Shown here: positions 9,555 through 38,677 of the stretch, one piece after another | How the letters are laid out: each line of letters begins with the position of its first letter | Position numbering within the stretch: position 1 is the first letter of the stretch | The notes under the pieces: model-generated | What the model was told of the DNA's origin: nothing | What the model saw: the letters and a program-made list of their open reading frames with translations, nothing else | Database searches by the model: none | Position numbers and translations under genes: made by a program | Assembly (NCBI GenBank): GCA_028872875.1 | Contig: JAGWOC010000017.1 | Coordinates: 1-48,254 of the forward strand | DNA length: 48,254 nt | DNA from: Chloroflexota bacterium | Lineage (GTDB): Bacteria > Chloroflexota > Dehalococcoidia > DSTF01 > JACRBR01 | Reading direction: 5' to 3'

Positions 9555-9566
9555 ATGGTGTGAGAC

Positions 9567-10676
<1,110 letters not shown>

Positions 10677-10680
10677 CGGC

Positions 10681-12214: not shown

Positions 12215-12263
12215 GCCCGGCGCTGGCCGGCCGGGACCCCGACCGCCCCATCGTCGTAGCGAA

Positions 12264-22597: not shown

Positions 22598-23511
22598 GCT
22601 CGTGTGACTGTGGCCGGCAGGGCGGCCAGCTCGGCGAGGTGCGCCAGAGGGTCCGCGTCGGGCGCGATGCCGAGCGCGCGCATGCGCGAGACGTCCGCGA
22701 CGAAGCGGCTCACCTCGGCGTTGCGTGGCGCTGTCCGCACGACCGCAGCCTTCGACCGGGTCACGTCCAACACGCGCTGCGCCAGCTCCAGGATCGGTGT
22801 GCCCGTCCCGCTGCCGATGTTGGTCGGCGACGCGAGCCCTTGCTCGCCGGCGAGCATCAGCGCGTCGACCACTGTGCCGATCCAGACGAAATCCAGCACC
22901 TGGTCGCCGCCGAAGACCTCCAGCGCCCCGCCGGCCGCCGCCCGGTCGAGCCAGAGCGGGATCACCCTGTCCCGGTCGCCCGGGCCATAGACGTTGGCAA
23001 GGCGGACGATCGCGACGTCGAGGCCGTAACAGTGGGCGAACGTGCGGCAGTACGCCTCGCCCGCGAGCTTGCTTGCGCCGTAGGGATTCTTCGCCCGCAG
23101 CGGGTGGTCCTCGTCGACCGGGACGTACAGCGCCTCTCCGTATACCTCGCGCGAGGACGTGAAGACGACGCGGCCCACGCCGAGATCGACGGCGCAGCGG
23201 AGGACGTTGAACGTGCCGCCCACGTTCGTCGTGAAGCTGTAGTCCGGGTCGTCGAGGGCGCCGATGACGTTCGACTGCGCGGCGAGGTGGAAGATGCGCT
23301 CGCACCCGTCCGCGGCCGCCCTCAGCGTGCTGGCCCCGCGCACGTCGCCCTTGATGAACTCGAGGGCCCCCGCGCCGGAGCGCGCCGCAAGCGCCTCGCG
23401 CGTGCCCCTCCGCAGGTTGTCGAGAACACGCACCTCGTCGCCCCGCGCAAGCAGCCGCGCCACGAGGTGGGAGCCGATGAAGCCGGCGCCGCCGGTGACA
23501 AGGCATCTCAT
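22594..23511 (-). CDS. NAD-dependent nucleotide-sugar epimerase/dehydratase
   Basis: 305 residues, extended SDR family. It has the NAD-binding loop TGGAGFIGSHL, DNLRRGTR, the FHLAAQSNV segment, the serine of TSSREVYGE and the catalytic pair YGASK (Tyr-x3-Lys), with LANVYGPGDRD as substrate loop. This is the pattern of GalE/UDP-glucuronate epimerase/dTDP-glucose 4,6-dehydratase relatives; the exact reaction cannot be told. It is slightly shorter than GalE. It should supply an activated sugar for the neighbouring transferases. Both ends overlap the neighbouring genes by ATGA. Confidence 0.88.
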   Translation of the reverse strand: MRCLVTGGAGFIGSHLVARLLARGDEVRVLDNLRRGTREALAARSGAGALEFIKGDVRGASTLRAAADGCERIFHLAAQSNVIGALDDPDYSFTTNVGGTFNVLRCAVDLGVGRVVFTSSREVYGEALYVPVDEDHPLRAKNPYGASKLAGEAYCRTFAHCYGLDVAIVRLANVYGPGDRDRVIPLWLDRAAAGGALEVFGGDQVLDFVWIGTVVDALMLAGEQGLASPTNIGSGTGTPILELAQRVLDVTRSKAAVVRTAPRNAEVSRFVADVSRMRALGIAPDADPLAHLAELAALPATVTRA

Positions 23512-24701
23512 GTCACGCCGTCCTGCACGGGCCGGTCGGCAGCCGCTGTCACCGCTTCCCGCCCCGCGTCACCCCTGCCGAGTCGCACGAGCAGATCGGC
23601 CAGCGTCGAGGCGCCCGTGGCCATGTTGAAGCGCGCCTCGCCGATGGCGCGGGCCGCCCGCCCCATGCGGAGGCGCAGCGCCGGGTCGCCGGCGAGCCGC
23701 TGCAGCCGGTCGCGGAGCGCCGCGCCGTCGCCGGCGTCGATGAGGAAGCCGCTTTCGCCGTCAGCGACGGCCTCCGCGTGCCCGCCCACGCGCGTCGTCA
23801 CGATCGGCAGCGAGGACGCCATCGCCTCGCCGAGCACCACCGCCAGGCAGTCCCCGCGCGTCGGGAGCACGAAGATGTCCGCGTCACGATAAAGTTGGAG
23901 CAGCTCCGGCGAGTAGGGTGCGAGCCCGCGATGCACGTACACCCCGTCTCCGGACGGCACGTCCGCGCCGGTGACGAGATGGAGCTCGCACGCATCCGAC
24001 AGGTGGCGCCGGTACGTCTCGAGCAGCAGGTCGCCGCCCTTGCGGCGCAGGTCGCCGCCCACGAAGAGCAGCCTCGTGCGCCGCCCACCCTGCCGGGCAC
24101 CCTCGTCCCGCAATGGGAACGCCGACACGTTCACGCCCGGGTGGACGACGGTAACGCGCGATGCCGCGACGCCGTAGTCCTGCACCAGCGAGGCCTTCGC
24201 CCACGCCGACCACGTCGTGTACGCCTGCGCGTCCCGCCAGACGCGCATCAGCAGCGCCCGCTTGAGGCGCTCCATCATCGGATGGCCCACCCTGTGGTCG
24301 TAGGCGGCGGCCAGCGCATCGATGTTGCGCGGCGTCGCGTCGAGCGAAAGGAGCGTCGGGATGCGGCGCATGAAGCCGCCCGCAAAGAGGCTGATCGTCT
24401 GCGTGTGGATAAACAGGGCGTCGAGCGGCTGCTGCCGGTGCGCGCGGGCGATCAGACGACGCGCCCGGATGCTCCCCCGCAACGTCCAGTTCTGCCCGAC
24501 GACGGGCAGGCGGCCGATGCCGGTGCGGGCGTACGGCACCTCGAGCCAGACCGGCTCGAAGTCTTGCCTGCCAGCCAGCGCTGCACGCAGGTTCATGGCG
24601 TAGGCGACATGCCCGAGCGCCTGCTCCATCACGAACCCGATCCGCGGGCGTGGTGCACCCGTCTGGGTGTCCGTACCGCCGTGCCGAACAACCATCGTCA
24701 T
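23508..24701 (-). CDS. Family 4 glycosyltransferase
   Basis: 397 residues. The N-terminal acceptor domain (RIGFVMEQALGHVAYAMNL, FIHTQTISLFAGGFMR, TLLSLDATPRN) is followed by the canonical GT4 donor domain: VVHPGVNVSAFPL, LLFVGGDLRRKGGDLLLE, and the retaining GT4 signature DADIFVLPTRGDCLAVVLGEAMASSLPIV with GG...EAVADGESGFLID. The N-terminus also resembles cytoplasmic mannosyl/glucosyl transferases of plant-sucrose-synthase type. It is probably peripheral on the membrane. The start at 24701 overlaps the giant gene's stop (ATGA), so it is co-translated with that surface protein, an unusual pairing. Confidence 0.9.
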   Translation of the reverse strand: MTMVVRHGGTDTQTGAPRPRIGFVMEQALGHVAYAMNLRAALAGRQDFEPVWLEVPYARTGIGRLPVVGQNWTLRGSIRARRLIARAHRQQPLDALFIHTQTISLFAGGFMRRIPTLLSLDATPRNIDALAAAYDHRVGHPMMERLKRALLMRVWRDAQAYTTWSAWAKASLVQDYGVAASRVTVVHPGVNVSAFPLRDEGARQGGRRTRLLFVGGDLRRKGGDLLLETYRRHLSDACELHLVTGADVPSGDGVYVHRGLAPYSPELLQLYRDADIFVLPTRGDCLAVVLGEAMASSLPIVTTRVGGHAEAVADGESGFLIDAGDGAALRDRLQRLAGDPALRLRMGRAARAIGEARFNMATGASTLADLLVRLGRGDAGREAVTAAADRPVQDGVT

Positions 24702-27700
24702 GCGAGCATGCCTCGCTTGCCCGCGATGTCCGACATCACGGTCGGTGTCGGGCTGCTGCTGTTGTGGTAGTTGATGGTGACGGAGTCGACCGATGGCGTG
24801 ACGGTCACAGAGCTGCTCGTCAGCGTCACCTGGTACTGGATGAAGCGCGCATCGGGACTCGTGATCGCGCTGCCGGTTGCCGTGATGGGCGCCGACCACG
24901 GCGTCCAGCTCGTCCCGTCGGGCGAGGTCCGCGTTTGGAAGCTGGCGCTGGTGCCGGCGGGGAAGCTGCCGGCCCACGACAGCGTGTCGAACGCCCGTGT
25001 TGCCCCGAGGTCGATCGCGCTCGATACGAACGTGCCGGTGGCGGCCGGATACCGGTCGATGCGCACCCAGTTCGCGACCAGCGAGGCGCCGCCGGGCGTG
25101 TAGTCGGACACGTGCACCGCCATCGGCGCCGAGAGGGCCGACGCGCTGCTGGCGACGAGCGTGCCGTCGATGAAGTACTGCACGCCGCCTGGCTGCCAAC
25201 TGATCAGGTAGTTGTGGGGCGCACCGAGGTACGCCGTGCCCAGGTCGACCGTCTGCTCGACGCCGCTCAGCATGGTGCGCGCGAAGAGCGTGTCCGACGT
25301 GCCCATCGTGCTGAAGAGGGCCCAGCTCGACCCTGACGTACCGTTGAGGTCCGTCGCGAAGCCGAAGTGCTCGAACGGCGCCGCGCCGAACGTCATCGTG
25401 CCCTCGAGCGAGCGCCCCGCCCCGAACGTGGCCGCCGAAGCGACGTCCGTGCCGTCCACCGTGAGCGCGCCCGCCGCCTCGGTGGCCGCGCCGCCCGCGC
25501 TCCACGGGGTCGAGGTCCACTTGCTGCCGAGCACCGTGCCGTTGAAGGCGTCGTACAGCTCCGCCGCCAGGCGCACTTCGCCGCCGGCATCCTCGGTGAC
25601 GTTGGTACCTGTGGCGCTTCCGGCGATGAAGTCGGCGTACGTGGTCTGCGTCACGGACGCCTGCGCCGTCGTAAACGTCGCCGTGGCAGAGGACGCGAGG
25701 TTGTGCGCCGCATCGCTCGACGACACGAAGTAGCTGTAGGCCGTGGCAGGTGTGAGCCCGGTCAGCGTCAGGCTGTGCTGCGTGACCAGTGTCGGGTCCG
25801 CGACCGTCAGGCTCGTCGCCGGGGAGACGCCGTAGTGCACGCTGCTGTCCGCGGGCTCGTTTGTCGTCCAGGACACGACGGCGCTCGTGCTCGTCAGCCC
25901 CGACACCTGCACGTTCGAGATCACCGGCGGCGTCGTGTCGATGGTGTACGTCGCGCTGAAGTTCCAGGTGCCGGCGTTGACCGGCGCGAACGCGTAGTCG
26001 ACGCCCTTGATGGTCTGCGTGGTGTAGGCCACCGGCGAGCCGTTCACCTGCACCGACGAGAGCGGCGAGCCGTTGAAGCTGGCCGGCAGCATCACCGAGA
26101 TCGGGTCGCCGCTGCCGCTCGCCGCATAGGTGAACGTCAGCGTGCCGCCTGCCCACGCGACGCCGGAGATCGTCGAGTCATGGCGCATCTGCGTGAACTG
26201 GAGGAAGCGGTCCGAGTTCCAGATCGGGATGCCGCGCGCCTGCGCCGCCGCGAGCGTGTCCGTGAGAAGCGAGACCGCGTCGGTCCGGTAGGCGTGGACA
26301 TTCCCCACGATCGCGCCGTAGAACCCCTGCGGGCTCAGCGCCGCATCGAAGAGCTGGGCGATGTCCGGCCCGATGTTCGCGCCGTCGACCTCGTCCGTCA
26401 CCTCGGTCAGCATGCCGTAGGTCTTCGTCGGCTTGAACTGGTCGTCGAAGATCAGCATCGGCAGCGCCGATCCCGTCATGTACCCGACGGGGTTCGAGCC
26501 GAGCCAGTTCCCCCACGTGTAGTAGTTGTTGTCGAGGTAGATGCCCTGCGCCGTCTCCAGCGCACCCTGCTGGCCCCAGCCGACCCACACCACCCAGTGG
26601 TTGCGTACGGTCTGCGAGATCGGCAGCCCGAAGGCAGCGAGGAAGCCGCTGATCGCGGTCTGCTCGGCAGCGGTCATGTTCGCGACCGTCGGGTTCGTCG
26701 CGTTCGCGGCATCGTCGATGTGGGCGCCCACCGTGTGGCCGCGGGCGCGCCAGGCGTTGACCCAGGCTGGCGTCACGGGGTCCGTGTTCGTCGGGCAGGC
26801 CGTGCAGCCGTCGGTCGTGTAGATGGTGATGTGCCCGCCGTATGACTCGGCGGCCGCCGCCATCTGGTCGATCGTCGTGGCAGGCCCGTCGTCCTGGTCG
26901 TCCGTCGGCAGGTAGACCGCCTTGCTCTGGCCGGGGAGATACCAGAGCCGCGGCAGCGGCTTCTTGTCCTGCGTGAGCTGGATGATCGTGTTCGCGAGCA
27001 GGCGCGACTGCTCGTCGGCCTGCGGCACCGCGAGCTTGGACAGGTCGAGGTATCCCACGAACATGTCCGAGGCACGGATGCCCGTCTGGCCGTCTCGCTC
27101 CAGGCCGGCGTACGCGGGGTTGCCCTGCCGCGTGTAGGCGATGCTCTTCGCCAGGTCGAAGGCGAACGCCGCCGCCTGCCCCGTCCCGCTGTTCGCGATG
27201 GTGAGTGCCGGGAACGAGGTCGCGGTGACGGCGTCGGAGTAGATCGTCGCGGCCGATGTCGCGCCGCTCAACGTATAGTTGTTGGCCGTGCCGTGGAACT
27301 GCATCGTCCCGCCGTAGATGCCGGCGCCGGGCGCCTTCGTGGTGTCGACCTTGATGTAGCCCTCGCTCGTCGTGCTGCCGGCCGTGGTGATGCCGAGTGT
27401 CGTGTTGAGCTGCGGGTCCGGCTTCATGGCGATGAGGTTGCCGCCGCCGGTCACGTACGTGTTGAACATCGACGCCTGAGACGCCGTCAGCGGCATCTCG
27501 GCGAGCAGCACGACATCGAACGACTGCAGGAACGACAGGCTCACCTGCGAGATGTCACGCTGCTGCGTCTCGTTGAACCCCTCGGCCTTCAGGATCTCGG
27601 TCAGGTATGGCCCGAGCTTGTTCGGCGCCGCCGCGTTCACGACGACCAGGATCGGGTTCGCCGGGATCGCCGGATCCGGCGTATTCGTCGGCGTCGGCGA

Positions 27701-30700
27701 TGGTCCAATGGGCGTCGCGGTCGCCGTGGCCGTGGGCGTTGCCGTGGGCGTGCCAGGCGGGCCGATGGCGACGGTGCCGTACATGTCGAACGACACCCCG
27801 GTCTCTTTGGCGAAGCCGCTGATCGTCGCAGGGAAGGCGCCGTACGCCTGCGGCGCCCAGCCGGCGGCTGCGGACGCCGGCAGGCCCGTCGTGTACCGGT
27901 AGACCGTCGAAACATTGTCCGTCTGTGCGAGGATCCAGTACGTCCCTGGCGCCAGCGTCGGGCCGCCGGGGACGGACAGAGTGTTCCACCCCTGGACGGC
28001 GAGCGCCTCGCCCGTCTGGGCAAGGAGCGTGCCGGGGTTGCCCGAGGCGTTGTTCGTGTAGACGGCCATGCGGATGTGCGCGTTCGGCGGCGTCGAGCCG
28101 ACGTAGACCGAGAGGCTCTGGAGCGTACCGCCCGTCGCAAGCGAGCCCGGCGACCCGTTGACGTAGCCGAAGTCCGAGCTGTCATTCACGCCGGTCGATG
28201 CGGTCAGCCCGAACGTCGCCAGCACGGGCGCCGTCGGCGTCGCCGTCGGCGTGCTCGTGACGGTCGGCGTGCTCGTGAGCGTCGGCGTGGCCGTCGGCGT
28301 CAGCGTCGGGCCGCCCGGCGTCACGGTCACGGTGGGCGTCGCTGTCGCCGTCGACGTGGCCGTGCTGGTCGCCGTGTTCGATGGCGTGCTCGTCGGCGGC
28401 GGCGTCGTGCTGACGGTGCCGAACATGTCGAACGCCTGGCCGGACTGCTTCGCGAAGCCACCAATGGTCGAGGGGAAGGGACCGTATGCCTGGGGCGCCC
28501 AACCCACCGCCGCCGACGGCGGCAGCCCGGTCGTGTAGCGGTAGACCGTCCCCACGTTGTCCGTCTGCGCGAGGATCCAGTACGTCCCGGGCGCGAGCGT
28601 CGGGCCGCCGGGGACGGACAGGGTGTTCCACCCCTGGACGGCGAGCGCCTCGCCCGTCTGGGCAAGGAGCGTGCCGGGGTTGCCGGAGGCGTTGTTCGTG
28701 TACACGCCGACGCGGATGTGCGCGTTCGGCGGCGTCGAGCCGACGTAGACCGAGAGGCTCTGGAGCGTGCCGCCCGTCGCCAGCGTGCCCGGCGACCCGT
28801 TGACGTAGCCGAAGTCCGAGGTGTCGTCGATGCCGGTCGATGCGGTCAGGCCGAACGTCGCCAGTGTGCCGCCGCCCACCGTGATCGCCACGCCCGCCCC
28901 GGGCGTTTCGAGGTTGCCGCTGTCGTCGACGGCGCGGCTCTTGATCGTCAGGGAGCCGGTCGCCGGCGGCGTAAAGCTGTACGTCCAGCTCGCGAGGCCC
29001 GTCGCCGGGTGCCAGGTCGTGCCGCCGTCCACCGACACCTCGACGCCGGCGACGACGCCGCCCCCGGCATCCGTCGCCGAGCCGCTGACCGTCAGCGGGA
29101 TCCCGTCCTTGACCGTCGCGCCCTGGGCGGGCGACGTGATGGTCGATGTCGGAGGCGTCGTGTCCGTCGAGGCGGTGGCCGGGACGAGGTTGGACGCGAG
29201 CGTCGCCGGCTGCGCGTGCATGTCGGCGAGGAGGTTGACCGTCGCCTGCTGCATGCGCAGGTCCGTCGGCGTACCGGCCCGGTCGTGGTTTGCGTCGAGG
29301 CCCCACGACCACTGCACCGTGCCGGCGCCGAAGACCAGCGCCCCGCCCGGCGCACGGTAGAGCGTCAGCTTGTGCGTCGCCGTGCCCGGCCCCGAGGGGC
29401 CGCCCGGCATCGGCGTGTACGAGCTTACGCTCTGGGTCGTCGATGACATGTCGATCAGGCCCGCGGGGCGGAAGCCGTTGTCGATGTCCTCGTCCCATTC
29501 GTAGCCCAGCGTGCCCTGGGGCAGCGTGGCCGTGCTGCCCGGGGTGAGCGTGGCGATGCTCGTGTTGCGCCAGAACCGGAGCGCCGAGAACGTCGAGGGC
29601 ACCGTGATGGCGTATGTGCAGCAGTCAACGGTCGAGAGCGTGCCCGTAAGCGCGTTCTCCGGCCGGTTGCCGTCGGCCGGCGGCCCGCCGAGCGGGTCGC
29701 GCCAGGCGCCGGTCCAGGTCGGCGGGTCCATCGGGTCGTGGACGGACGGCTCCTTGAACGCGACGAGCGTGCGGTACGGCGTGGCCGACCCGTCGATGCT
29801 GCTCTCCCAGCGCGTCTTCCACGCCGACTCGTTGCCGCTGAAGAAGGCGAGGTTGACGCCGGCGTTGCGCGCCGCTTCGATGTTGGCGCGCTGGTTCGCG
29901 GACCAGTACTCATCGTGGCCGACGGAGAGGAACACCTTGTGCTGCGTGATCAATGCGCCGTTGCGGTCGCTGTCGACGTCGGTGAAATAGCTGACGTCGT
30001 AGCCGTTCGCCTCCAGCCAGCGCACCATCGGGTACTCGGCGTTGAAGACGAAATCCTGCGGGCCGCCGACGCCGTCGCCCGTGCGGGTGTTCGATGGCCG
30101 GTTGTAGCTCACCTTGGTGGCGCGGCTCGGCGAGCCGACGTACAGGCTCTTGCCGCCGTAGCTGTTGTACGCCTGCCACGTCGCGTCGGAGGTCTGGAAG
30201 AGGATGTCCGAGTGGCTCGCGTCGTCGCGCACGATGAAGACGATCTGGCTGGCGCCGGCCGTGCCGTCGGTGCGCACGAGCTTCGCGAAGTAGATGCCGG
30301 AGACGGCGTCGGCCGGGACCGCCCACGACGCGGAGACGGCCCAGTTGCCGCAGTCATAGAGGCCGGTGGTGGCGTCGGTCAGGCAGGGCGGCTGCGCCTG
30401 GGGCAGCGGGACCGACGGCAGGATCGTCGTGATCTTCCGCGCACCCATGCCGCCGTAGTACCCCATGCGGTAGATGTCGAGCCGGTACGCGGTCGCCGGC
30501 GTGTTGACCTTGAAGCTGATCGTGCTCCCGTGATTGACGCTGATGTCCGTGGCGAACCCCTGGATGCTCGGGTCGCCGGAGCCGCTGACGTCCCACTCGC
30601 TCGGCGGGTTCCCCGGCTTGCTGTTCTCGCAGACGATGGGCTGCGTGATCGGCGCGCTGCAGGGGTTCGCGGCGGTGCTGAATGTGAAGTCCGGCGACGT

Positions 30701-31546
30701 CGCCAGGTTGTTCGAGGCGTCCGCGCTCATGACGGCGAAGTGATACGTCGTGAGCGGCGCGAGCCCCGAGAGTGGCTGCGCGTGCGTCAACTGAAGGGTG
30801 GGGTTGGGTGAGGCGGGCGCGAGCGAGCCGTAGCCCGTCGTCGTGCCGTATGTGACCTGGCTCGTGCTCGGCTCGTCGGTCGTCCACGACACCACGGCGC
30901 TCGTGTCCGTGATGCTCGCGACCTGCACGTTGCTGATCACCGGCGGCGTCGTGTCGGGGGTGACGGCGACGGTGCCGTAGATGTCGAAGGACTGCGATCC
31001 TGACTGCGCCCAGCCGCTGATGGCGGCGGGGAACGCACCGTAGGCCTGCGGTGCCCAGCCGACGGCGTTCCCCGACGGTAGCCCTGACGTGATCCGGTAC
31101 ACCGTCGCAGCGTTGTCCGTCTGCGCCACGATCCAGTACGTCCCGGTGGTGAGCGTCACCCCTGCCGGCACCGCGACGGTGTTCCATCCCGAGACGGCGA
31201 CCGCTTCCGCGGTCTGCGTGATCAGCGTCCCCGGGTTGCCGGAGGCGTTGTTCGTGTACAGGGCAAGGCGGATGTGCGCGCCGGCCGGCGTCGCGCCGAC
31301 GTACACCGACAGGCTGGACAACGTCCCGGCCGTCGACAGGACGCCCGGCGACCCGTTGATGTAGCCGAAGTCAGAACTGTCGTTCACCCCGGTGGGGTTC
31401 GCGTATCCGAAGGTCACCGTGGTGGTGACCGCCCGGCCGGTCTGCGGGTGCCAGAGCGCTCCCACCGCGAACAGCGCGAGGACGGCGGCGGCGAGCGCAG
31501 CACTGTGGAGGATCCGAGGTGTATGCATGTGCGTTACCGCTTTCAT
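24698..31546 (-). CDS. Giant multidomain secreted protein (dimethylformamidase-like, deacetylase-like, FN3/Ig/LamG modules)
   Basis: 2282 residues, in the Wzx operon. A signal peptide (about 10-35) is followed by beta-module copy 1 (about 40-194), FN3 (195-290), and a domain like the N,N-dimethylformamidase beta-subunit C-terminus (about 292-785: YNSYGGKSLY, SYNRPSNTR, VGHDEYWS, NLAFFSGNES, TGAWRDP, LGYEWDED). Then come an Ig-like domain (800-890), module copies 2 and 3 (about 894-1045, 1108-1257) joined by Pro/Thr linkers, a class I amidotransferase-like flavodoxin fold (about 1290-1530), a polysaccharide-deacetylase-like barrel (about 1538-1800: LPTDDQDDG, VGAHIDD, TVRNHW), FN3, LamG-like and a last beta-domain. 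No LPXTG, membrane anchor or S-layer motif was seen. The Met at 31546 is preferred; one at 31528 is also possible. Role inferred: surface or matrix protein acting on the exopolysaccharide. Confidence 0.85.
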   Translation of the reverse strand: MKAVTHMHTPRILHSAALAAAVLALFAVGALWHPQTGRAVTTTVTFGYANPTGVNDSSDFGYINGSPGVLSTAGTLSSLSVYVGATPAGAHIRLALYTNNASGNPGTLITQTAEAVAVSGWNTVAVPAGVTLTTGTYWIVAQTDNAATVYRITSGLPSGNAVGWAPQAYGAFPAAISGWAQSGSQSFDIYGTVAVTPDTTPPVISNVQVASITDTSAVVSWTTDEPSTSQVTYGTTTGYGSLAPASPNPTLQLTHAQPLSGLAPLTTYHFAVMSADASNNLATSPDFTFSTAANPCSAPITQPIVCENSKPGNPPSEWDVSGSGDPSIQGFATDISVNHGSTISFKVNTPATAYRLDIYRMGYYGGMGARKITTILPSVPLPQAQPPCLTDATTGLYDCGNWAVSASWAVPADAVSGIYFAKLVRTDGTAGASQIVFIVRDDASHSDILFQTSDATWQAYNSYGGKSLYVGSPSRATKVSYNRPSNTRTGDGVGGPQDFVFNAEYPMVRWLEANGYDVSYFTDVDSDRNGALITQHKVFLSVGHDEYWSANQRANIEAARNAGVNLAFFSGNESAWKTRWESSIDGSATPYRTLVAFKEPSVHDPMDPPTWTGAWRDPLGGPPADGNRPENALTGTLSTVDCCTYAITVPSTFSALRFWRNTSIATLTPGSTATLPQGTLGYEWDEDIDNGFRPAGLIDMSSTTQSVSSYTPMPGGPSGPGTATHKLTLYRAPGGALVFGAGTVQWSWGLDANHDRAGTPTDLRMQQATVNLLADMHAQPATLASNLVPATASTDTTPPTSTITSPAQGATVKDGIPLTVSGSATDAGGGVVAGVEVSVDGGTTWHPATGLASWTYSFTPPATGSLTIKSRAVDDSGNLETPGAGVAITVGGGTLATFGLTASTGIDDTSDFGYVNGSPGTLATGGTLQSLSVYVGSTPPNAHIRVGVYTNNASGNPGTLLAQTGEALAVQGWNTLSVPGGPTLAPGTYWILAQTDNVGTVYRYTTGLPPSAAVGWAPQAYGPFPSTIGGFAKQSGQAFDMFGTVSTTPPPTSTPSNTATSTATSTATATPTVTVTPGGPTLTPTATPTLTSTPTVTSTPTATPTAPVLATFGLTASTGVNDSSDFGYVNGSPGSLATGGTLQSLSVYVGSTPPNAHIRMAVYTNNASGNPGTLLAQTGEALAVQGWNTLSVPGGPTLAPGTYWILAQTDNVSTVYRYTTGLPASAAAGWAPQAYGAFPATISGFAKETGVSFDMYGTVAIGPPGTPTATPTATATATPIGPSPTPTNTPDPAIPANPILVVVNAAAPNKLGPYLTEILKAEGFNETQQRDISQVSLSFLQSFDVVLLAEMPLTASQASMFNTYVTGGGNLIAMKPDPQLNTTLGITTAGSTTSEGYIKVDTTKAPGAGIYGGTMQFHGTANNYTLSGATSAATIYSDAVTATSFPALTIANSGTGQAAAFAFDLAKSIAYTRQGNPAYAGLERDGQTGIRASDMFVGYLDLSKLAVPQADEQSRLLANTIIQLTQDKKPLPRLWYLPGQSKAVYLPTDDQDDGPATTIDQMAAAAESYGGHITIYTTDGCTACPTNTDPVTPAWVNAWRARGHTVGAHIDDAANATNPTVANMTAAEQTAISGFLAAFGLPISQTVRNHWVVWVGWGQQGALETAQGIYLDNNYYTWGNWLGSNPVGYMTGSALPMLIFDDQFKPTKTYGMLTEVTDEVDGANIGPDIAQLFDAALSPQGFYGAIVGNVHAYRTDAVSLLTDTLAAAQARGIPIWNSDRFLQFTQMRHDSTISGVAWAGGTLTFTYAASGSGDPISVMLPASFNGSPLSSVQVNGSPVAYTTQTIKGVDYAFAPVNAGTWNFSATYTIDTTPPVISNVQVSGLTSTSAVVSWTTNEPADSSVHYGVSPATSLTVADPTLVTQHSLTLTGLTPATAYSYFVSSSDAAHNLASSATATFTTAQASVTQTTYADFIAGSATGTNVTEDAGGEVRLAAELYDAFNGTVLGSKWTSTPWSAGGAATEAAGALTVDGTDVASAATFGAGRSLEGTMTFGAAPFEHFGFATDLNGTSGSSWALFSTMGTSDTLFARTMLSGVEQTVDLGTAYLGAPHNYLISWQPGGVQYFIDGTLVASSASALSAPMAVHVSDYTPGGASLVANWVRIDRYPAATGTFVSSAIDLGATRAFDTLSWAGSFPAGTSASFQTRTSPDGTSWTPWSAPITATGSAITSPDARFIQYQVTLTSSSVTVTPSVDSVTINYHNSSSPTPTVMSDIAGKRGMLA
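27771..28222 (-). repeat. Direct repeat, beta-module copy 3 (giant gene)
   Basis: This is one of two closely matching 452-bp direct repeats in the giant gene; its partner is 28413-28864, period 642 bp. Long runs are identical base for base, for example the segments around 28003-28050 and 28631-28680. That implies recent duplication or gene conversion, or a local assembly hazard. It codes for the ~150-residue module starting LATFGLTASTG and ending FDMYGTV. Confidence 0.85.
28413..28864 (-). repeat. Direct repeat, beta-module copy 2 (giant gene)
   Basis: Partner of the repeat at 27771-28222, same length. Between the two lies a Thr/Pro-rich linker made of degenerate TPT/TATST units, itself repetitive at DNA level (about 28225-28400). 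Confidence 0.85.
30960..31425 (-). repeat. Shared beta-module, copy 1 (giant gene, N-terminal)
   Basis: This codes for TFGYANPTGVNDSSDFGYING through FDIYGTV. It is clearly homologous to copies 2 and 3 and to the GH5-protein copy, but more diverged in DNA, so it is an older duplicate. Confidence 0.78.
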
Positions 31547-31592: not shown

Positions 31593-33134
31593 TCATGCGA
31601 CCGCACCGCCCTTCGCGCGGATGAGGCCGGGCAGCTCGCGCAGCTCGCTGATCCTCACCGCGCCGAACGCCAGCGCGGCTACGCCATAGCTCAGCCCGCC
31701 CGCGGCGATGATCGGGATCAGGCCGTACGGGGTGGCGAGCCACATCGCGAGCACCATCGGCACCCCGGCCGCGAGCCCGCGGGCGCAGACGAGCGCGTTC
31801 GCCCAGCCGAAGGTGTCCTTCCGGAGGAGCCAGAACGCCCCCGCCACGACACTCGCCTCGGTGATCACGGTCGTGATCGCCGCGCCCACCGCACCGTTTC
31901 CGTTGAGGTGCTGGAAGTAGGGGATGGCGACCAGGTTGAGGAGCGGGTTGAGGATCGCGGCGCCCACGCTGACCACGAGCCACGCCTTCTCGCGGTTGCG
32001 AGCGATGAGGACCGTCACGGCGATCATGCTGATCGCCACGAGCGGCACGTGCAGCGACAGAATCTGCAGCAGCACGATCGAGTGGTCGAACGCCGGCGCG
32101 TACCGGAAGAAATGAATCGTTGGTGCAGCGCCGACCAGCAGGAAGAGGGCGATCGGTAACGTGAGCAGGACGGCGATCTCGAGGGCGCGCCCGGCCGCCC
32201 GGTCGGAGCGCGTGTCGATGGCGCGCGAGAGGCTCGGCAGGAGCGCGGTCGTCAGGGCGAACGGGATGAACGCGGGAATGCCCACGAAGCGGTACGCGGC
32301 GCCATACCAGCCAACGACGTGGTCGTTGCTGAACAGCGACAGCATCGTCACGTCGATGCCGCCGTAAATGGTCGTCGCGATGCCCCATGCCAGGAACGGT
32401 GCGCTCCCCATGAACAGGGTGCGCCAAAGGGGCAGGTCGATGCGTGTCGAGAGCCCGGCCACGCGCCAGAAGTAGCCCGTCAACACGAGCATCGACACCA
32501 CGCCCGCCCCGAAGACGACGAGCGCCCACACGTCGAGCCCCGCTCCCAGGAATGCGAGTGAGCCGACGCCGAAGATGACAATCAGCACTTTTTCGACCAC
32601 GCCCATCATCGAGAGCACCGTCATGCGCTCGAGCCCCTGGAGTGACGCGGCGACGATCGAGCTGCACGCCGACGCGGAGGTCCAGGCCATCGCGATGTAC
32701 ACGACGACCCGCGTCGAGGCGGGATACCCGAGAGCCTGCAGCATCACCGTCGACGCCGCGAACGCGACGACGATGATCGGCAGTCGTGCCACGAGCGCGT
32801 TAAAGGCGAGGTGCGGCGCCCTCTCCGGCTCGCGGGCGATCGCGCGCGTCAGCCAGATAGGCGTGCCGAAGCCGATGAACGCCCCGAACACGCTCGTGAA
32901 CCCCCAGGCGAACGTCAGCTTGCCGAGATTCGCATCGCCCAGGTAGCGTGGCAGCGCGAACACGATGATCGAGGTGGCAAGCCAGGTGAGCACCTGGCCC
33001 GACAGCAGCGCGAGCACGTTCTGCACGATGCGCGCCGTGCGGTAGGGGCCGGCCGCTGCGTCAGCACGCGGCGGCGCTTCCGCAAGGCGCAGGGAAGCGT
33101 CGGGCACGGCCACGGCGACAGCCTGGTCAACCAT
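31593..33134 (-). CDS. wzx: Wzx-type polysaccharide flippase (MOP superfamily)
   Basis: 513 residues with about 14 hydrophobic segments throughout, the layout of oligosaccharide flippases. The first helix region is QNVLALLSGQVLTWLATSIIVFALPRYLG, and GFGTPIWLTRAIAREPERAP and SSIVAASLQGLERM are typical of the Wzx/RfbX/PST family. It should move the lipid-linked repeat unit across the membrane. The ATG at 33134 has no Shine-Dalgarno, but a -10-like TAGCCT ends 7 nt upstream, so a leaderless start is likely; the frame can extend to about 33272, but that would place the regulatory repeat array inside the gene. It is the first gene of unit A, followed by the giant surface-protein gene 46 bp downstream. 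Confidence 0.9.
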   Translation of the reverse strand: MVDQAVAVAVPDASLRLAEAPPRADAAAGPYRTARIVQNVLALLSGQVLTWLATSIIVFALPRYLGDANLGKLTFAWGFTSVFGAFIGFGTPIWLTRAIAREPERAPHLAFNALVARLPIIVVAFAASTVMLQALGYPASTRVVVYIAMAWTSASACSSIVAASLQGLERMTVLSMMGVVEKVLIVIFGVGSLAFLGAGLDVWALVVFGAGVVSMLVLTGYFWRVAGLSTRIDLPLWRTLFMGSAPFLAWGIATTIYGGIDVTMLSLFSNDHVVGWYGAAYRFVGIPAFIPFALTTALLPSLSRAIDTRSDRAAGRALEIAVLLTLPIALFLLVGAAPTIHFFRYAPAFDHSIVLLQILSLHVPLVAISMIAVTVLIARNREKAWLVVSVGAAILNPLLNLVAIPYFQHLNGNGAVGAAITTVITEASVVAGAFWLLRKDTFGWANALVCARGLAAGVPMVLAMWLATPYGLIPIIAAGGLSYGVAALAFGAVRISELRELPGLIRAKGGAVA

Positions 33135-33141
33135 TGGGATC

Positions 33142-33196
33142 AGGCTACGTGATGCCTGTTGAGAAGCCGTCGATGGTGTGTTCAAGGCGGGTCGAG
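33142..33196 (-). promoter_or_regulatory. Array A: four 11-bp-spaced GTTGAG-like repeats plus -10 box of the wzx unit
   Basis: Read on the plus strand the hexamers are GTTGAG (33158), GTCGAT (33169), GTTCAA (33180) and GTCGAG (33191), each exactly 11 bp apart. On the gene strand the array ends 10 bp before TAGCCT (33147-33142), itself 7 nt before the wzx ATG. It is the weakest of the three main arrays in sequence but has the same geometry as arrays B and C. Confidence 0.65.
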
Positions 33197-33299
33197 AAGG
33201 GGGTTCACGATTGACGCCGACGGTGCCAGCCATGTCATGATGCGAGTATTCTTCTGCTTGGTCATGCCTCACCTCGCGGGCCCGGGCAGGGGGTGGCGC

Positions 33300-34445
33300 C
33301 TAGTGCACCAGCTCCCAGACCCGGTCGATGACGTACGACTGCTGCTCGTCGGTCATCGCCGGGAAGAGCGGCAGCGCGATCGTCCGCGCGGCGAGACGCT
33401 CCGCCTCCGGCAGGCGCGTGAGCCCGAATCGCTTGACGAAGTAGGGCTCAAGGTGCACGGCCATGCAGCCGCGCCGGGTCGTGATCCCCTGCTCCTTCAG
33501 CCGCCGCATGGCGTCGGCACGGTTGACCGGCGAGGCGTCCGTCAGGACGATGCAGTACGACTGGTACGTGTGGAGGAATCCGGCGTGGCTGCCAGGCACC
33601 TGCACGCTCTCGACCGCCGCGAACGCGCGGTCGTAGGCCGCCGCGAGCTCCCTTCGGCGGGCGATCAGGGCGTCGAGCCGGTCCATCTGCGCCAGGCCGA
33701 TCGCCGCGTGCACATCGCTCATCCGGAAGTTGAATCCGGCCTCCGGGTATTCTTCGATGAGCACGTCCTCCGCGTGATGCCGCGCGAGGTCCGACGCCGA
33801 GGCGGCGTGGGAGCGCATGAGCCGCGCGCGCTCCGCCAGCCGCTCGGAGTCGGTGACGAGCATCCCGCCCTCGGCGGTCGTGATCGTCTTTCGCGGGTGG
33901 AAGCTGAAGCACGTGACCTCGCTGATCGCGCCGACGTGCTTGCCGTTGATGCGGGCGCCGAGGGCGGGCGCCGCGTCTTCGACCACGTGCAGACGGTGCA
34001 ACTCCGCGATCTGGCCGATGGCGTGCAGGTCGGCTGCGAGCCCGAACTGGTCGACGGGCAGGATGGCGCGCGTACGACGGTTGATCGCCGCCTCCGCCTT
34101 CGCGGGATCGATGTTCCAGGTGTCGCGCTCGACGTCCACGACGCGCGGGATGCCGCCGGCGTGGATGATCGCGTTCGCCGATGCGACGAACGTGAAGCTC
34201 GGCATGATCACTTCGTCGCCGGGCTGGAGCGCCAGCGCCTCGAGCGCGAGTTGCAGCGCCGTCGTGCAACTGGTCGTGGCGACGGCGTGCGCCGCCCCGC
34301 AGTACGCCGCGACGCGCTCTTCGAACGCGGCCACGCGCGCACCCTGGACGAGCCAGCCAGACCGCAGCACGTCGAGGACGGCCTGCTCTTCCTCGGGTCC
34401 CAGCACCGGCTCGGTCAGCGGGACCTGGATCGTTACGGCGTGCAC
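33300..34445 (-). CDS. DegT/DnrJ/EryC1 family aminotransferase (second)
   Basis: 381 residues, PLP-dependent sugar aminotransferase. Visible: SGWLVQGARVAAFEE, the ATTSCTTALQLALEAL cofactor loop, DEVIMPSFTFVASANAI, VEDAAPALGA and the Schiff-base lysine in SFHPRKTITTAEGGM (the His-Pro-Arg-Lys form seen in the PseC/LegC-like branch). It transfers an amino group from glutamate to a keto-sugar nucleotide. Two GTG starts exist (34463 and 34445); the second has GGAGGGAGG just upstream and overlaps the SDR stop by 13 bp. It is the last gene of unit B. It differs clearly from the other DegT protein at 36450-37571, so two amino groups or two sugars may be made. Confidence 0.9.
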   Translation of the reverse strand: MHAVTIQVPLTEPVLGPEEEQAVLDVLRSGWLVQGARVAAFEERVAAYCGAAHAVATTSCTTALQLALEALALQPGDEVIMPSFTFVASANAIIHAGGIPRVVDVERDTWNIDPAKAEAAINRRTRAILPVDQFGLAADLHAIGQIAELHRLHVVEDAAPALGARINGKHVGAISEVTCFSFHPRKTITTAEGGMLVTDSERLAERARLMRSHAASASDLARHHAEDVLIEEYPEAGFNFRMSDVHAAIGLAQMDRLDALIARRRELAAAYDRAFAAVESVQVPGSHAGFLHTYQSYCIVLTDASPVNRADAMRRLKEQGITTRRGCMAVHLEPYFVKRFGLTRLPEAERLAARTIALPLFPAMTDEQQSYVIDRVWELVH

Positions 34446-35404
34446 AACGCCTCCCTCCGCCACTCGATGACGGCGCGGAGCCCCGCGTCGAGGTCGGTCT
34501 TCGGCTCGTAGCCGAGCGCCGCGCGCACGCGGTCGAGCGATGCGCGCCGGCGGCGTACGGGGTTCACCTTGCGCTCCGGTTCGTGGCTAGGCGCCAGGTC
34601 CTGACGCCCGAACAGCCGTAGCAGCGTGTCGCACAGCTCGCGCAGCGTCGTTTCCGTCCCGGTGCCGACGTTCAACACGACATCCGTCGCGTCGGACTGC
34701 GCCGCCAGGATGTTCGCGCGAGCGACGTCTCCGACGTACACAAGGTCCATCGACTGCGTGCCGTCGCCGAAGATCACCGGCGCCTCGCCGGCGTCGATGC
34801 GGTCCAGCCAGCGCGCGAGCACCTCGGTATACACCCCGTAAATGTCCATCCGCGGCCCGTAGATGTTGAAGTAGCGCAACGCGACGTACCGAAGTCCATA
34901 CATCTCCGCGTAGGCGCGGAAGATCTGCTCGTTCGCGATCTTCGCGGCGCCGTACAGCGTGCGGTTGTTGAACGGGTGCGCCTCGTCCATCGGCAGGTAG
35001 CTCGGCTCGCCGTACACCGACGCGCTGGAAGCGGCGACGAGCTTGCGGACGTGGTGCCGCACCGCGGATTCCAGCACGTTCTGCGTGCCGTTGATCATCA
35101 CCTGTACCGCGCGCAGCGGCTCTTCCGCGCACTGCGTGATGCGGAGCGCTGCCTGGTGGAATACCACATCGCAGCCCTCGGTCAGGCGGTCGACCAGCGC
35201 CTCGTCGCGGATGTCGCCGTCCACCACCTCGACCCGGCCGGTCGAGACCGCGCCGGACAGGTTCTCGTGCCGTCCGCGCACGAAATCATCGATGACCGCC
35301 ACGTGCGCGGCGCCCGCTGCCAGCGCCTGGTCGACGATGTGCGATCCGACGAACCCCGCGCCTCCCGTCACCAGGATCTTTGCGCCGTCCAGGTCCACCC
35401 TCAT
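34433..35404 (-). CDS. NAD-dependent nucleotide-sugar epimerase/dehydratase
   Basis: 323 residues, extended SDR. It has TGGAGFVGSHIVDQAL, DDFVRGRHENL, FHQAALRITQC, the SSASVYGEP serine box and YGAAK (Tyr-x3-Lys), with YFNIYGPRMD. It is closer to the UDP-glucose/UDP-GlcNAc 4-epimerase branch (WbpP/Gne-like) than to 4,6-dehydratases, but the substrate is not certain. In unit B it lies between the formyltransferase and a DegT aminotransferase, so it probably prepares the keto- or epimerised sugar for amination. The start at 35404 overlaps the formyltransferase stop by ATGA. Confidence 0.88.
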   Translation of the reverse strand: MRVDLDGAKILVTGGAGFVGSHIVDQALAAGAAHVAVIDDFVRGRHENLSGAVSTGRVEVVDGDIRDEALVDRLTEGCDVVFHQAALRITQCAEEPLRAVQVMINGTQNVLESAVRHHVRKLVAASSASVYGEPSYLPMDEAHPFNNRTLYGAAKIANEQIFRAYAEMYGLRYVALRYFNIYGPRMDIYGVYTEVLARWLDRIDAGEAPVIFGDGTQSMDLVYVGDVARANILAAQSDATDVVLNVGTGTETTLRELCDTLLRLFGRQDLAPSHEPERKVNPVRRRRASLDRVRAALGYEPKTDLDAGLRAVIEWRREALCTP

Positions 35405-36453
35405 GCGTGCACTCCCCTCGCTGCTCCCTGTTCGACGCGGGCCTGCAGCCGCGCAAGATCCTCTTCGACTGAGGCCAGCCGCCGGTACAGCTCCTGAAAC
35501 GTGGGCCCGAGCGTGATGCGTACGGAGCGGATCAGCTCGCCCGCCCTGCACGGCGCCGCGTCTTCCGCCTGCACCTCCAGCAGCATCAGCGAGCCGCTGC
35601 CGCACAGCACCTCAACCCCCCCGCCGGGGTGCAGCTTCGCGACGCGCCCGGCGATGCGGCCCTCGTAGACCGGCGCCGGCGTGAGCGCCCGCGCCGCCCA
35701 CACGCGCAGCGGACGCCCGTCCAGGTAGGTGTATGCGCCGGGATACGGCCGCGTCAGCGCGCGCACGAGCGCCGCGATGTGCTCGCTCGGCAGCCGCCAG
35801 TCGATCAGCCCGTCGTCTGGTGTGCGGGCGCAGGCGTAGGTCGCCAGCGCCTCGTCCTGCGCGACGAGGGGCGCCGTGCCCGCGACGATCGCCGGCAGGT
35901 GTTCGAGCACGAGCGCGGCCGATGCCTGCCTGACCTGCTCGTAGAGGTCCGCGGCGGTGTCGCACGGGCCGACCGCGATCTCGCGTTGCGCGACGACCTC
36001 TCCGGCGTCGACGTCTTCGTTCAACCGCCAAAGCGTCACGCCTGCTGCCGGCTCGCGGTTGATCACGGCCCAGTTCGTCGGCGCGAAGCCGCGGTAGCGC
36101 GGCAGCAGCGAGTCGTGTACGCCGAAGCACCCCAGGCGCGGCGCGTGGATCACGCGCGGCGGCAGGATGGTCCTCCAGCCCAGCACGAGCACGAGGTCGG
36201 GGGCGAGCGCGATGAGCTGCTCGATGTCAGCGGGCGAGAGGCGCTTGGCGATCGTACAGGCCACGCCGGCGCGCGCCGCGAGCGCGCTGATCTCGCGGTC
36301 GAAGCGCCGCGGCTCGTGCGCGTCCTCCTCGAGCGCGAAGACGCGCTCGATGCGCTCCCCCCGTGCCAGCAGACGATCGAGCAACTCGAACCCGTGGGCG
36401 CGGCCGCCGATGAAGACGATGCGGGCGCCGGTGGCGTCTGGTGCCGCGCTCAT
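35401..36453 (-). CDS. Formyltransferase-family protein, probable sugar N-formyltransferase
   Basis: 350 residues of the Fmt/ArnA-N-like fold that uses N10-formyl-tetrahydrofolate. Catalytic His and Asp are present: GVHDSLLPRYRGFAPTNWAVIN and NEDVDAGEVVAQ. The Asn found two residues before the His in ArnA, Fmt and PurN (N-x-H) is Gly here (G-V-H), a substitution also seen in some sugar-formyltransferase relatives. The C-terminal part (about 210-300) has the usual beta-barrel. It ends in a predicted coiled coil (LYRRLASVEEDLARLQARVEQ). Its place after a dehydrogenase and an aminotransferase supports formylation of an amino sugar rather than Met-tRNA. It overlaps both neighbours by ATGA. Confidence 0.82.
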   Translation of the reverse strand: MSAAPDATGARIVFIGGRAHGFELLDRLLARGERIERVFALEEDAHEPRRFDREISALAARAGVACTIAKRLSPADIEQLIALAPDLVLVLGWRTILPPRVIHAPRLGCFGVHDSLLPRYRGFAPTNWAVINREPAAGVTLWRLNEDVDAGEVVAQREIAVGPCDTAADLYEQVRQASAALVLEHLPAIVAGTAPLVAQDEALATYACARTPDDGLIDWRLPSEHIAALVRALTRPYPGAYTYLDGRPLRVWAARALTPAPVYEGRIAGRVAKLHPGGGVEVLCGSGSLMLLEVQAEDAAPCRAGELIRSVRITLGPTFQELYRRLASVEEDLARLQARVEQGAARGVHA

Positions 36454-37571
36454 CTGATGGCTTCGGCGCGGACGGGAAGCGCCGCCTCCAGGGCCGATGC
36501 CACGGCCCGAACCTGCTCGCGCGTGATCTCCGGAAACATCGGCAGCGAGAGGATCCGCGGGGCGATGCTCTCCGTCACCGGTAGCGCACCTTCGAGCCCC
36601 AACCGCACGTACGCGCGCTGCTGGTGTACCGGCACGGGATAGTGGATCCCGGTGCGCACCCCGCGCTCGTCGAGGGCGGCGCGCACGCGCTCGCGTTCAT
36701 CGACCTCCACCACGTACAGGTGGTAGACATGCTCGCGGCCGTCCGGGGCCGAAGGAAGGCGCAGTGGAAGACCCGCGAGCGCCTCGCCGTACCAGGCGGC
36801 GGCCTGGCGGCGCTGCTGGTTCCACGTGTCGAGGTGCGGGAGCTGCACGCGTACCGCGGCCGCGAGGATCTCCGACAGGCGGAGGTTCCAGCCGGGCTCG
36901 TCGTGCACGTACCGGCGCGCCTCGCCGTGACTGCGCAGGCGCCGCGCCCGCGCGGCGAGCGCCGCGTCGTCCGTGACGACGATGCCGCCCTCCCCAACCG
37001 TCCCCAGGTTCTTCGCCGGGTAGAAGCTGAAGCAGGCCGCGTCGCCGAGCGCGCCGGTCCGCCGGCCGTCGTAACGCGCCCCGTGCGCCTGGCAGGCGTC
37101 CTCGATGACGCGCAGCCCGTGCGTCCGCGCGATTGCAGCGATGCGTCCCATGTCGCACGGCAGCCCGTACAGGTGCACGGGGATGATGGCGCGCGTGCGC
37201 GGCGTGATCGCCGCTTCGATCGTTGTGGGATCAAGCGTGTACGTGCCGCGCTCGACATCCACCAGCACCGGCGTGGCGCCCACGGCGCTGATCGCCTCGA
37301 CGGTCGCGATGAAGGTGTGGGAGACGGTGATCACCTCGTCGCCGGGCCCGATGTCCATCGCCAGCAGCGCCAGTTGCAGCGCGGCCGTGCCGCTGTTGAC
37401 GGCTACGGCGTGCGCGGCGCCGCAGTACGCCGCGAACTCCGCTTCCAGCGCCTCGGCCTCCGGGCCCATGACGAAGACGCCGCGGTCGAGCACGCGTTCG
37501 TATGCCGCGAGCAGCTCTGCGCGCAGCGGCTGGAGGCGCGCCTGCATGTCGACGAAGGGCACGTCAGCCAT
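36450..37571 (-). CDS. DegT/DnrJ/EryC1 family aminotransferase (first)
   Basis: 373 residues. It opens with VPFVDMQARLQPLRAEL, typical of WlbE/QdtB/FdtB-like sugar aminotransferases. It has FVMGPEAEALEAEFA, AVNSGTAALQLALLA, VSHTFIATVEAI, EDACQAHGARY and the PLP lysine in SFYPAKNLGTVGEGG. Such enzymes aminate a 3-keto sugar nucleotide, and the Gfo/Idh dehydrogenase coded just upstream (8-bp overlap) would produce the 3-keto group, as in the WlbA-WlbE pair. The formyltransferase downstream would then cap the new amine. The sugar itself is not determinable here. Confidence 0.92.
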   Translation of the reverse strand: MADVPFVDMQARLQPLRAELLAAYERVLDRGVFVMGPEAEALEAEFAAYCGAAHAVAVNSGTAALQLALLAMDIGPGDEVITVSHTFIATVEAISAVGATPVLVDVERGTYTLDPTTIEAAITPRTRAIIPVHLYGLPCDMGRIAAIARTHGLRVIEDACQAHGARYDGRRTGALGDAACFSFYPAKNLGTVGEGGIVVTDDAALAARARRLRSHGEARRYVHDEPGWNLRLSEILAAAVRVQLPHLDTWNQQRRQAAAWYGEALAGLPLRLPSAPDGREHVYHLYVVEVDERERVRAALDERGVRTGIHYPVPVHQQRAYVRLGLEGALPVTESIAPRILSLPMFPEITREQVRAVASALEAALPVRAEAIR

Positions 37572-38634
37572 CGAGCCGCTCCATCGCGCCGCCCTTCTGC
37601 AGCGAGCGCTCCGCGGCGGCGAGGATGCGCACCGTGCGCAGTCCGGCCTGCCCGTCCGTCACCGGCGTGCCACCGCCCCGGATCGATTCGATGAAGTGCG
37701 CGCATTCCGTCCTGAGCGCTTCGGTCTGGTCGAGCATCGGCGCGTGCATGTCGCCGAGCCGGTACGCGACGAGCGCTTCCCTGCGTGCCTCATCGGCGTG
37801 CCCGTTCCAGCGCACGCCGCGGTCGTAGACCTTGATTTTCTCCGTGGGCTCGAGGTCGTCGTACAGGATCATGCGCCGGTCGCCGCCGACCAGCACCTGG
37901 CGCACCTTCACCGGGGAGAGCCAGTTCACGTGGAAGTGCGCGATCAGGTCGCCCTCGAATCGCAGCGTCAGGTACGCGACGTCGGCCATGCCGCCCGGCA
38001 GGTGCGTGACACCGATCGCGCTGACCTGCGTCGGCCGTGCCGGGAGCAGGTAGTCCATGATCGCGAGGTCGTGTGCCGCGAGGTCCCAGACGACGTTCAC
38101 GTCGTGCTGCACGAGCCCCAGGTTCACGCGCACCGAATCGTAGTAGTACAGTTCGCCGATCTCGCCGCTGTCGATGAGATCCTTCATCCGCCGGACCGCG
38201 CCGGTGTACACGAACGTGTGGTCCACCATCAGCACGCGCCGCTGCCGCTGTGCCAGCTCGACCAGTTCCTCGGCGTCTTCGACCGACGTCGTAAGCGGCT
38301 TCTCGACCAGCACGTGCTTCCCGGCGAGCAGCGCGCGCTTCGCCAGCGTCGCATGCGTCTGGACGGGCGTCGCGATCGCCACGGCGTCGATGCTCGCGTC
38401 CCGCAGCACGTCCGCGAAGTCGGCGACCGCACGGACGCTCGGATGCCGCGCCTGCATCGCTTGCCGCCGCGTTTCCGACTGGTCGCAGATGGCGAGCATG
38501 CGGCAGCCCGGAGTGTCGAAGAAGTTGCGGACGAGGTTCGGCCCCCAGTAGCCGCAGCCGAGCACCGCCACGCCGACCGGCGGCGCGGTTGCGGCCGTGG
38601 GCGGCTGCGGCGAGAGCAGCGTCGTGGAATGCAA
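37564..38634 (-). CDS. Gfo/Idh/MocA family sugar dehydrogenase
   Basis: 356 residues. The Rossmann loop VAVLGCGYWGPNLVRNF, then CDQSETRRQAM, VAIATPVQTHATLAKRALLAGKHVLVEKPLT (with the catalytic-lysine EKP motif) and the later DLAAHDLAIMDYLL (His of the active site) are all visible. It resembles WlbA/WbpB-type UDP-sugar 3-dehydrogenases. The TTG at 38634 is chosen because AGGGGG lies 5 nt upstream; a GTG at 38673 also fits the frame but has no Shine-Dalgarno and lies too near the -10 box. It is the first gene of unit B, directly downstream of repeat array B. Confidence 0.9.
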   Translation of the reverse strand: MHSTTLLSPQPPTAATAPPVGVAVLGCGYWGPNLVRNFFDTPGCRMLAICDQSETRRQAMQARHPSVRAVADFADVLRDASIDAVAIATPVQTHATLAKRALLAGKHVLVEKPLTTSVEDAEELVELAQRQRRVLMVDHTFVYTGAVRRMKDLIDSGEIGELYYYDSVRVNLGLVQHDVNVVWDLAAHDLAIMDYLLPARPTQVSAIGVTHLPGGMADVAYLTLRFEGDLIAHFHVNWLSPVKVRQVLVGGDRRMILYDDLEPTEKIKVYDRGVRWNGHADEARREALVAYRLGDMHAPMLDQTEALRTECAHFIESIRGGGTPVTDGQAGLRTVRILAAAERSLQKGGAMERLDG

Positions 38635-38677
38635 GCTTGCCCCCTGGGGGCGACGCCTCACGGACGTGCCCACTCGT

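Follow-up and report, generated by a model that had tools for sequence, protein, structure and literature searches.

A predicted secreted protein joining a dimethylformamidase-type amidase unit to an Agd3-like unit in a Chloroflexota polysaccharide operon

The 48,254-nucleotide stretch analyzed here, contig JAGWOC010000017.1 of a Chloroflexota bacterium whose genome assembly (GCA_028872875.1) comprises 234 contigs, is termed the window. The gene under study lies on its minus strand (24698-31546) and codes for a multidomain protein of 2282 residues, DMFA-DAC. Gene order at the locus is hexapeptide acyltransferase, family 2 glycosyltransferase (GT2), Gfo/Idh oxidoreductase, DegT aminotransferase, formyltransferase, epimerase, a second DegT aminotransferase, the flippase gene wzx, DMFA-DAC, and a family 4 glycosyltransferase (GT4). 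The open reading frame (ORF) begins with ATG at 31546, with an in-frame alternative GTG at 31606, and the wzx stop codon lies 46 bp upstream. At the other end, its own stop codon and the start codon of GT4 share the 4-bp sequence ATGA (24701-24698). This placement, overlap included, had been proposed in a preliminary description of the DNA, with the strand left unstated. The motifs by which that description recognized two enzyme-like domains (VGHDEYWS, SYNRPSNTR, TGAWRDP, TDD, HIDD, and RNHW) are all located in the translated frame. Judged by sequence conservation, the frame is real and not a chance one, because its catalytic-type columns vary little or not at all across 45 relatives of the first enzyme-like unit and 72 of the second. 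A contig of another Chloroflexi bin, 93% identical, also carries the end of the gene and, after it, the glycosyltransferase genes seen in the window.

The protein adopts a modular predicted architecture (Table 1), in which the two enzyme-like units are set among β-rich modules. The fibronectin type III (FN3) and immunoglobulin (Ig)-like modules and the three copies of a β-module given in the preliminary description are recovered: the Pfam families fn3 and Pur_ac_phosph_N match two stretches each, Big_7 matches a third region, and the β-module of ∼150 residues corresponds to a 300-nucleotide repeat family with three copies of 66-80% identity. The LamG module is visible only as a weak GH16/LamG-like match. 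The N terminus is hydrophobic and, judged by eye, resembles a signal peptide (MHTPRILHSAALAAAVLALFAVGALWHPQTGRA). A fused homologue from Dyadobacter shares the domain order of the window protein and ends in a Por_Secre_tail, the tail of the type IX secretion system (T9SS), and thus supports secretion of proteins of this type.

The first enzyme-like unit belongs, as first described, to the family of the N,N-dimethylformamidase (DMFase) β-subunit. Pfam DMFA2_C (PF20254) matches with an E-value of 2.8e-100 and 336.8 bits against a curated cut-off of 27, and a profile of nine relatives retrieves from the PDB both the Paracoccus DMFase (6lvb, E 4e-46) and an N-acetyl-(R)-β-phenylalanine acylase (8huy, E 7e-51). 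In the Paracoccus enzyme, the iron is ligated by Y399, Y440, and E521, H519 is essential, and N547 lies in the active site (PMC7686228). The profile alignment to 6lvb places Tyr460, Tyr469, Glu546, His544, and Asn572 of the window unit, in that order, on Y399, Y440, E521, H519, and N547, and this set is complete in 44 of the 45 relatives; in the remaining one, a local gap leaves the second Tyr uncertain. An AlphaFold2 (AF2) model of the unit (mean predicted local distance difference test score, pLDDT, 82.8) overlays with 8huy and 6lvb with Z scores of 27.5-28.8 over ∼395 residues, the next row having a Z score of 8. An intact DMFase-type active site is therefore very probable, given the conserved ligand set and a model that matches these two structures far above the rest. 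The check proposed earlier for this domain, structure prediction with inspection of the metal-binding residues, thus gave a model at a Z score of ∼28 to DMFase with the predicted Tyr/Tyr/Glu ligands in place.

Comparison with the large subunit of the Paracoccus DMFase (6LVB) shows likeness in the Ig-like domain, the fold of domain III (Z 27.5), the iron ligands, and the equivalents of H519 and N547. The window unit differs in being embedded in a 2282-residue predicted secreted protein within a polysaccharide operon. Further, the pentraxin domain II that is inserted in the Ig domain of DMFase has no counterpart in the model, residues 28-457 of which span residues 3-738 of 6lvb. Because this insertion is missing, the modeled unit is classed as a member of the superfamily and not as DMFase proper, an α2β2 enzyme. 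The top structural match is 8HUY (Z 28.8), with which the HxEY motif and the QAY region align, whereas 8HUY shares only 19% identity with the window unit and is a free-standing enzyme with a small-molecule substrate. Since 8HUY is an N-acyl-amino-acid acylase, the DMFase family includes N-acyl hydrolases.

The second enzyme-like region had been described as a class I amidotransferase-like fold followed by a deacetylase-like barrel. These two parts are one unit (residues 1294-1869), referred to here as the DAC unit, in which Pfam finds no match. A scan of genome contigs yielded 178 relatives, and an alignment of 72 sequences, the window's own included, shows D1550, H1609, R1648, H1650, and H1751 to be invariant. 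The AF2 model (pLDDT 90; predicted template modeling score, pTM, 0.93) comprises a GATase1/ThuA-type domain, a CE4-type barrel, and a β domain. Foldseek ranks Agd3 (6nwz) first, with an E-value of 2.5e-15 over the whole unit, and this is the sole whole-unit match among the matches listed. The VIA comparison with 6nwz gives a Z score of 17.4 over 481 aligned residues with a root-mean-square deviation of 9.6, so the relative domain positions differ between the DAC unit and Agd3. Taken singly, the GATase-fold domain matches ThuA/GATase1-like proteins with Z scores of 17-18, and the barrel matches the CE4-type barrels 3rxz, 3qbu, and 8t0j with Z scores of 16-18.5. Fold comparison alone was informative here: phmmer with the DAC unit alone against the PDB and a profile search returned nothing useful. 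Profiles of the barrel and of CE4 enzymes, compared with each other, gave no significant match (E 0.15), although the one stretch that aligned sets the conserved GxExGxH on the CE4 motif's first His.

In Agd3, a fungal exopolysaccharide deacetylase, a GATase-fold domain (CBM87) serves for binding, and the catalytic residues are D377, D378, H510, H514, R613, and H668 (PMC7229062). Of the earlier description, the amidotransferase fold stands and the amidotransferase enzyme does not, as residues 1294-1533 of the window protein contain no Cys and no Cys is invariant among the 72 relatives, so that the Cys-His-Glu triad is missing; by analogy with CBM87, this domain probably serves the deacetylase as an attached binding module instead of being an enzyme in its own right. 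The deacetylase-like barrel is likewise upheld in its modeled fold and its five invariant, putatively metal-binding or catalytic residues, and not in the canonical CE4/CE18 HxxxH motif. Relative to Agd3, the DAC family keeps the DD pair, one His, an Arg, and the C-terminal His but lacks HxxxH (CM2); it is also paired with or fused to a DMFase-type domain and occurs outside Pel/GAG-type clusters. Relative to the CE4/NodB-type enzymes PgdA (3QBU) and ArnD (8T0J), to which the barrel has Z scores of 16-18, the positions of DD, the first metal His, the Arg, and the C-terminal His can be matched, whereas the second metal His of HxxxH is not present. At the HxxxH position the family consensus reads GxHxNTxC and the window GAHIDDA, and H1650 may replace the missing ligand. 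Agd3_CE (PF25115) matches none of the 72 members at E 0.1 and is found in none of 24 DAC-holding genomes, the controls being likewise silent; PF01522 (CE4, Polysacc_deac_1) is missing from the window domain and matches only two of the 72 members weakly (best E 0.0014).

The two units recur together. Among 79 loci with a DAC unit, drawn from several phyla, DMFA2_C is fused to DAC in 34 and encoded by a neighboring gene in 15, many of the 30 others lying on incomplete contigs. By comparison, any DMFA2_C is present in only 7 of the 60 genomes of the relatives search, the window's own being among the rows. Fusions in either order and the split form all occur, and the DMFA2_C tree requires 11 changes of arrangement, the fused groups not forming single clades. 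Because the arrangement has changed repeatedly while the linkage persisted, this is strong evidence for joint function. Tandem arrays of two or three DAC paralogues are also seen, in Bacteroidota bins and Pelotalea (L082, L093, L100, and L024), with no DMFA2_C in the stretch examined.

Either unit is also found beside an amino-sugar/Wzx cassette of the window type in Chloroflexota, Alpha- and Gammaproteobacteria, and Cyanobacteria, so the association with flippase and polysaccharide operons raised in the preliminary description recurs in other lineages. In rhizobia, each unit occurs singly beside such a cassette. Rhizobial plasmids carry acyltransferase, Gfo/Idh, DegT, acyltransferase, epimerase, DegT, Wzx, and Wza genes followed by a DMFA2_C gene, and four cassette enzymes of R. 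phaseoli share 43-55% identity and gene order with those of the window; on pSymB of Sinorhizobium meliloti, a stand-alone DAC gene adjoins the equivalent of the window cassette. A cassette-type Gfo/Idh gene lies within 10 kb of DAC in 9 of the 79 loci (Gamma- and Betaproteobacteria, Cyanobacteria). Genomes of 2.7-10.7 Mb almost always have one copy of this gene, which chance alone would place within 10 kb with a probability of ∼1% or lower per genome. Because the second DegT protein resembles QdtB/WbpE-type 3-aminotransferases, N-acylated 3-amino sugars are probably present in the polymer. A flippase suspected by eye beside the DMFA2_C gene of one relative (G004) was rejected, having no Pfam match and no BLAST match to the window wzx.

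On two of the Rhizobium plasmids (L009 and L104), CobW-family (PF02492) GTPase genes adjoin the DMFA2_C genes, which fits with a metalloenzyme; no CobW metallochaperone genes are found in the other 79 loci, the link being rhizobial only. In L009, L103, and L104, two giant DMFA2_C/DUF4082 genes stand in tandem, followed by a C39-type ABC exporter. Together, the tandem genes, CobW, and the exporter suggest metal delivery and type I secretion. On a mobilizable 66-kb Paenarthrobacter plasmid (L102), a DMFA2_C/DUF4082 gene adjoins genes for a ZIP metal transporter, a multicopper oxidase-domain protein, and metal-responsive regulators.

The reading put forward for DMFA-DAC, which on the sequence comparisons has about an even chance of being correct, is a secreted two-enzyme editor that hydrolyzes N-acyl groups on the polymer of its own operon. 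Repeat units would be flipped by Wzx and then polymerized, and the exported protein would act on this polymer outside the membrane. The GATase-fold and LamG-like modules would hold the polysaccharide chain, with the Ig, FN3, and β-modules carrying both enzyme units. Acyl groups of amino sugars, acetyl or formyl, would be removed at two different metal sites, one of the DMFase type with a predicted Fe(III) bound by two Tyr and one Glu and assisted by a catalytic His, and the other in the CE4-type barrel of the Agd3-like unit. The products would be free amines, such as Agd3 makes on galactosaminogalactan. We infer export, iron content, catalytic activity, substrate, and the action of both sites on the same polymer. 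The earlier suggestion of a secreted enzyme that edits the finished polymer is thereby favored by the predicted secretion, the polysaccharide operon, and the recurring link, and its N-formyl specificity is not. Several points weigh against an editor of this kind. The activity of DMFase depends on a small 15-kDa subunit (PMC7686228); the barrel lacks the HxxxH metal motif, its putative metal site being judged from sequence; and the window's own barrel diverges from its relatives at the DD and HxxxH-equivalent positions. The context links are associations, and copies in Bacteroidota and some Chloroflexota sit apart from any polysaccharide cassette.

These non-polysaccharide contexts make a broader scavenging role possible, in which a secreted degradative enzyme would serve nutrition or competition by de-acylating foreign glycans or glycoconjugates, and the location in a polysaccharide operon would be restricted to certain lineages. 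Such a role would suit a 4030-residue fused DMFA2_C-DAC protein of an Anaerolineales member (L025, 6668-18760), encoded beside an α-amylase, a GH63-type hydrolase, and a sugar ABC transporter, as well as the Bacteroidota copies flanked by MacB/FtsX permeases and the T9SS tail of the Dyadobacter homologue. For the window protein it is considered unlikely, however, as the gene is translationally coupled within a synthesis operon and the cassette adjoins either unit across four bacterial groups. The protein could instead serve as an adhesin or a scaffold at the cell surface, with enzyme-like domains that bind carbohydrate without catalysis, as its numerous Ig-, FN3-, and LamG-like modules, the non-canonical metal motif of the barrel, and the binding role of the GATase-fold domain in Agd3 itself would allow. 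Almost all relatives keep the Fe ligands, the His, and the Asn, and the barrel has five invariant positions (D/H/R/H/H); such retention would be unexpected for inactive domains and makes this explanation quite improbable.

An amidase-like domain dedicated to removing N-formyl groups, as the preliminary description proposed, would find its substrate in the amino sugars made by the operon's own formyltransferase, which is indeed present in the cassette, and the Paracoccus DMFase cleaves formamides and does not use dimethylacetamide or acetamide. A formyltransferase-like ORF is found in none of the 79 DAC loci (best E 0.22), however, the DMFA2_C-bearing rhizobial cassettes have acyltransferases, with a hexapeptide acyltransferase in the formyltransferase slot, and the relative 8huy hydrolyzes N-acetyl groups. 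The co-occurrence with sugar formyltransferases that was to be expected is thus missing, the formyl-specific reading is weak, and a dedicated deformylase is very unlikely; general de-N-acylation fits the sequence comparisons better. Either acyl group is possible, since DMFase prefers formamides while the enzyme closest in fold hydrolyzes N-acetyl groups.

DMFase-type enzymes are known as small-amide degraders, and the known polysaccharide de-N-acetylases are of the CE4 and CE18 families. No paper that mentions dimethylformamidase together with exopolysaccharide or glycosyltransferase was found in a search of literature other than subscription literature. The pairing of two amide-cutting-type domains in unrelated bacteria suggests, from sequence, an unrecognized way to trim acyl groups off surface polysaccharides. 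A bolder proposal, offered tentatively and with rather less than even confidence, is a widespread, undescribed editing module in which a mononuclear-iron DMFase-family amidase acts jointly with an Agd3-like deacetylase, the latter from a new Pfam-dark family, and both have their substrate in the N-acyl amino sugars of a single exopolysaccharide. If true, this would be the first role of DMFase-type iron chemistry in cell-surface biogenesis and would bring an iron-dependent chemistry into the tailoring of capsules and exopolysaccharides. The recurrent couple and the shared amino-sugar cassette give a concrete functional hypothesis for hundreds of proteins annotated "DUF4082 / N,N-dimethylformamidase beta subunit domain".

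Table 1. Features of the DMFA-DAC gene and its neighbors (window coordinates)
Feature	Residues	Coordinates	Strand	Basis or remark
Whole gene, multidomain protein	2282 aa	24698..31546	-	open frame; predicted secreted
β-module copy 1	42-195	30962..31423	-	repeat family D1 (reported repeat frame 30911-31210) and sequence inspection
FN3/PAP_N-like domain 1	~198-290	30677..30955	-	Pfam fn3 and Pur_ac_phosph_N
DMFase-type amidase unit (Ig-like domain + DMFA2_C)	298-754	29285..30655	-	PF20254, profile match, AF2 model
Two predicted iron ligands	Tyr460, Tyr469	30140..30169	-	profile alignment to 6lvb; PMC7686228
Essential His and iron-ligand Glu equivalents, in GHDEYW	His544 (= H519), Glu546 (= E521)	29909..29917	-	profile alignment, relatives
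Active-site Asn equivalent	Asn572 (= N547)	29831..29833	-	profile alignment, relatives
Big_7 Ig-like domain	799-868	28943..29152	-	PF17957 E 4.6e-10
β-module copy 2	895-1047	28406..28864	-	repeat family D1
β-module copy 3	1109-1259	27770..28222	-	repeat family D1
Thr-Pro-rich linkers		28223-28405 and 27668-27769	-	flank β-module copy 3
GATase1/ThuA-fold domain, CBM87-like	1294-1533	26948..27667	-	no Cys; fold matches; position as CBM87 in Agd3
Deacetylase-like barrel	1534-1793	26168..26947	-	conserved columns; fold matches to CE4-type barrels
C-terminal β domain of Agd3-like unit	1794-1869	25940..26167	-	AF2 secondary structure; whole unit matches 6nwz
FN3/PAP_N domain 2	1870-1960	25667..25939	-	PF16656 E 6.7e-14
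LamG/GH16-fold-like region, weak		24761..25645	-	PF00722 E 0.0013, below cut-off; same place in Dyadobacter homologue
GT4 glycosyltransferase, downstream neighbor		23508..24701	-	ATGA overlap
wzx flippase, upstream neighbor		31593..33272	-	PF01943 E 1.1e-24
DegT aminotransferase 1		33300..34463	-	PF01041; 43% identity to R. phaseoli cassette protein
NAD epimerase/dehydratase		34433..35605	-	PF01370; 53% identity to R. phaseoli
Formyltransferase, ArnA/Fmt-like		35401..36453	-	PF00551, PF02911; ArnA E 1.9e-46; in rhizobial acyltransferase slot
DegT aminotransferase 2, QdtB/WbpE-like		36450..37571	-	50% identity to R. phaseoli
Gfo/Idh/MocA oxidoreductase		37564..38673	-	55% identity to R. phaseoli
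Hexapeptide acyltransferase		39859..40446	-	PF00132

The left part of the window holds several long frames without a Pfam match on the minus strand (2589-12251 and 16581-20216). A gene on the plus strand (12369-14891), near the polysaccharide operon, codes for a protein with GGDEF, HD-GYP, and GAF domains, and control of the locus by cyclic di-GMP is possible.

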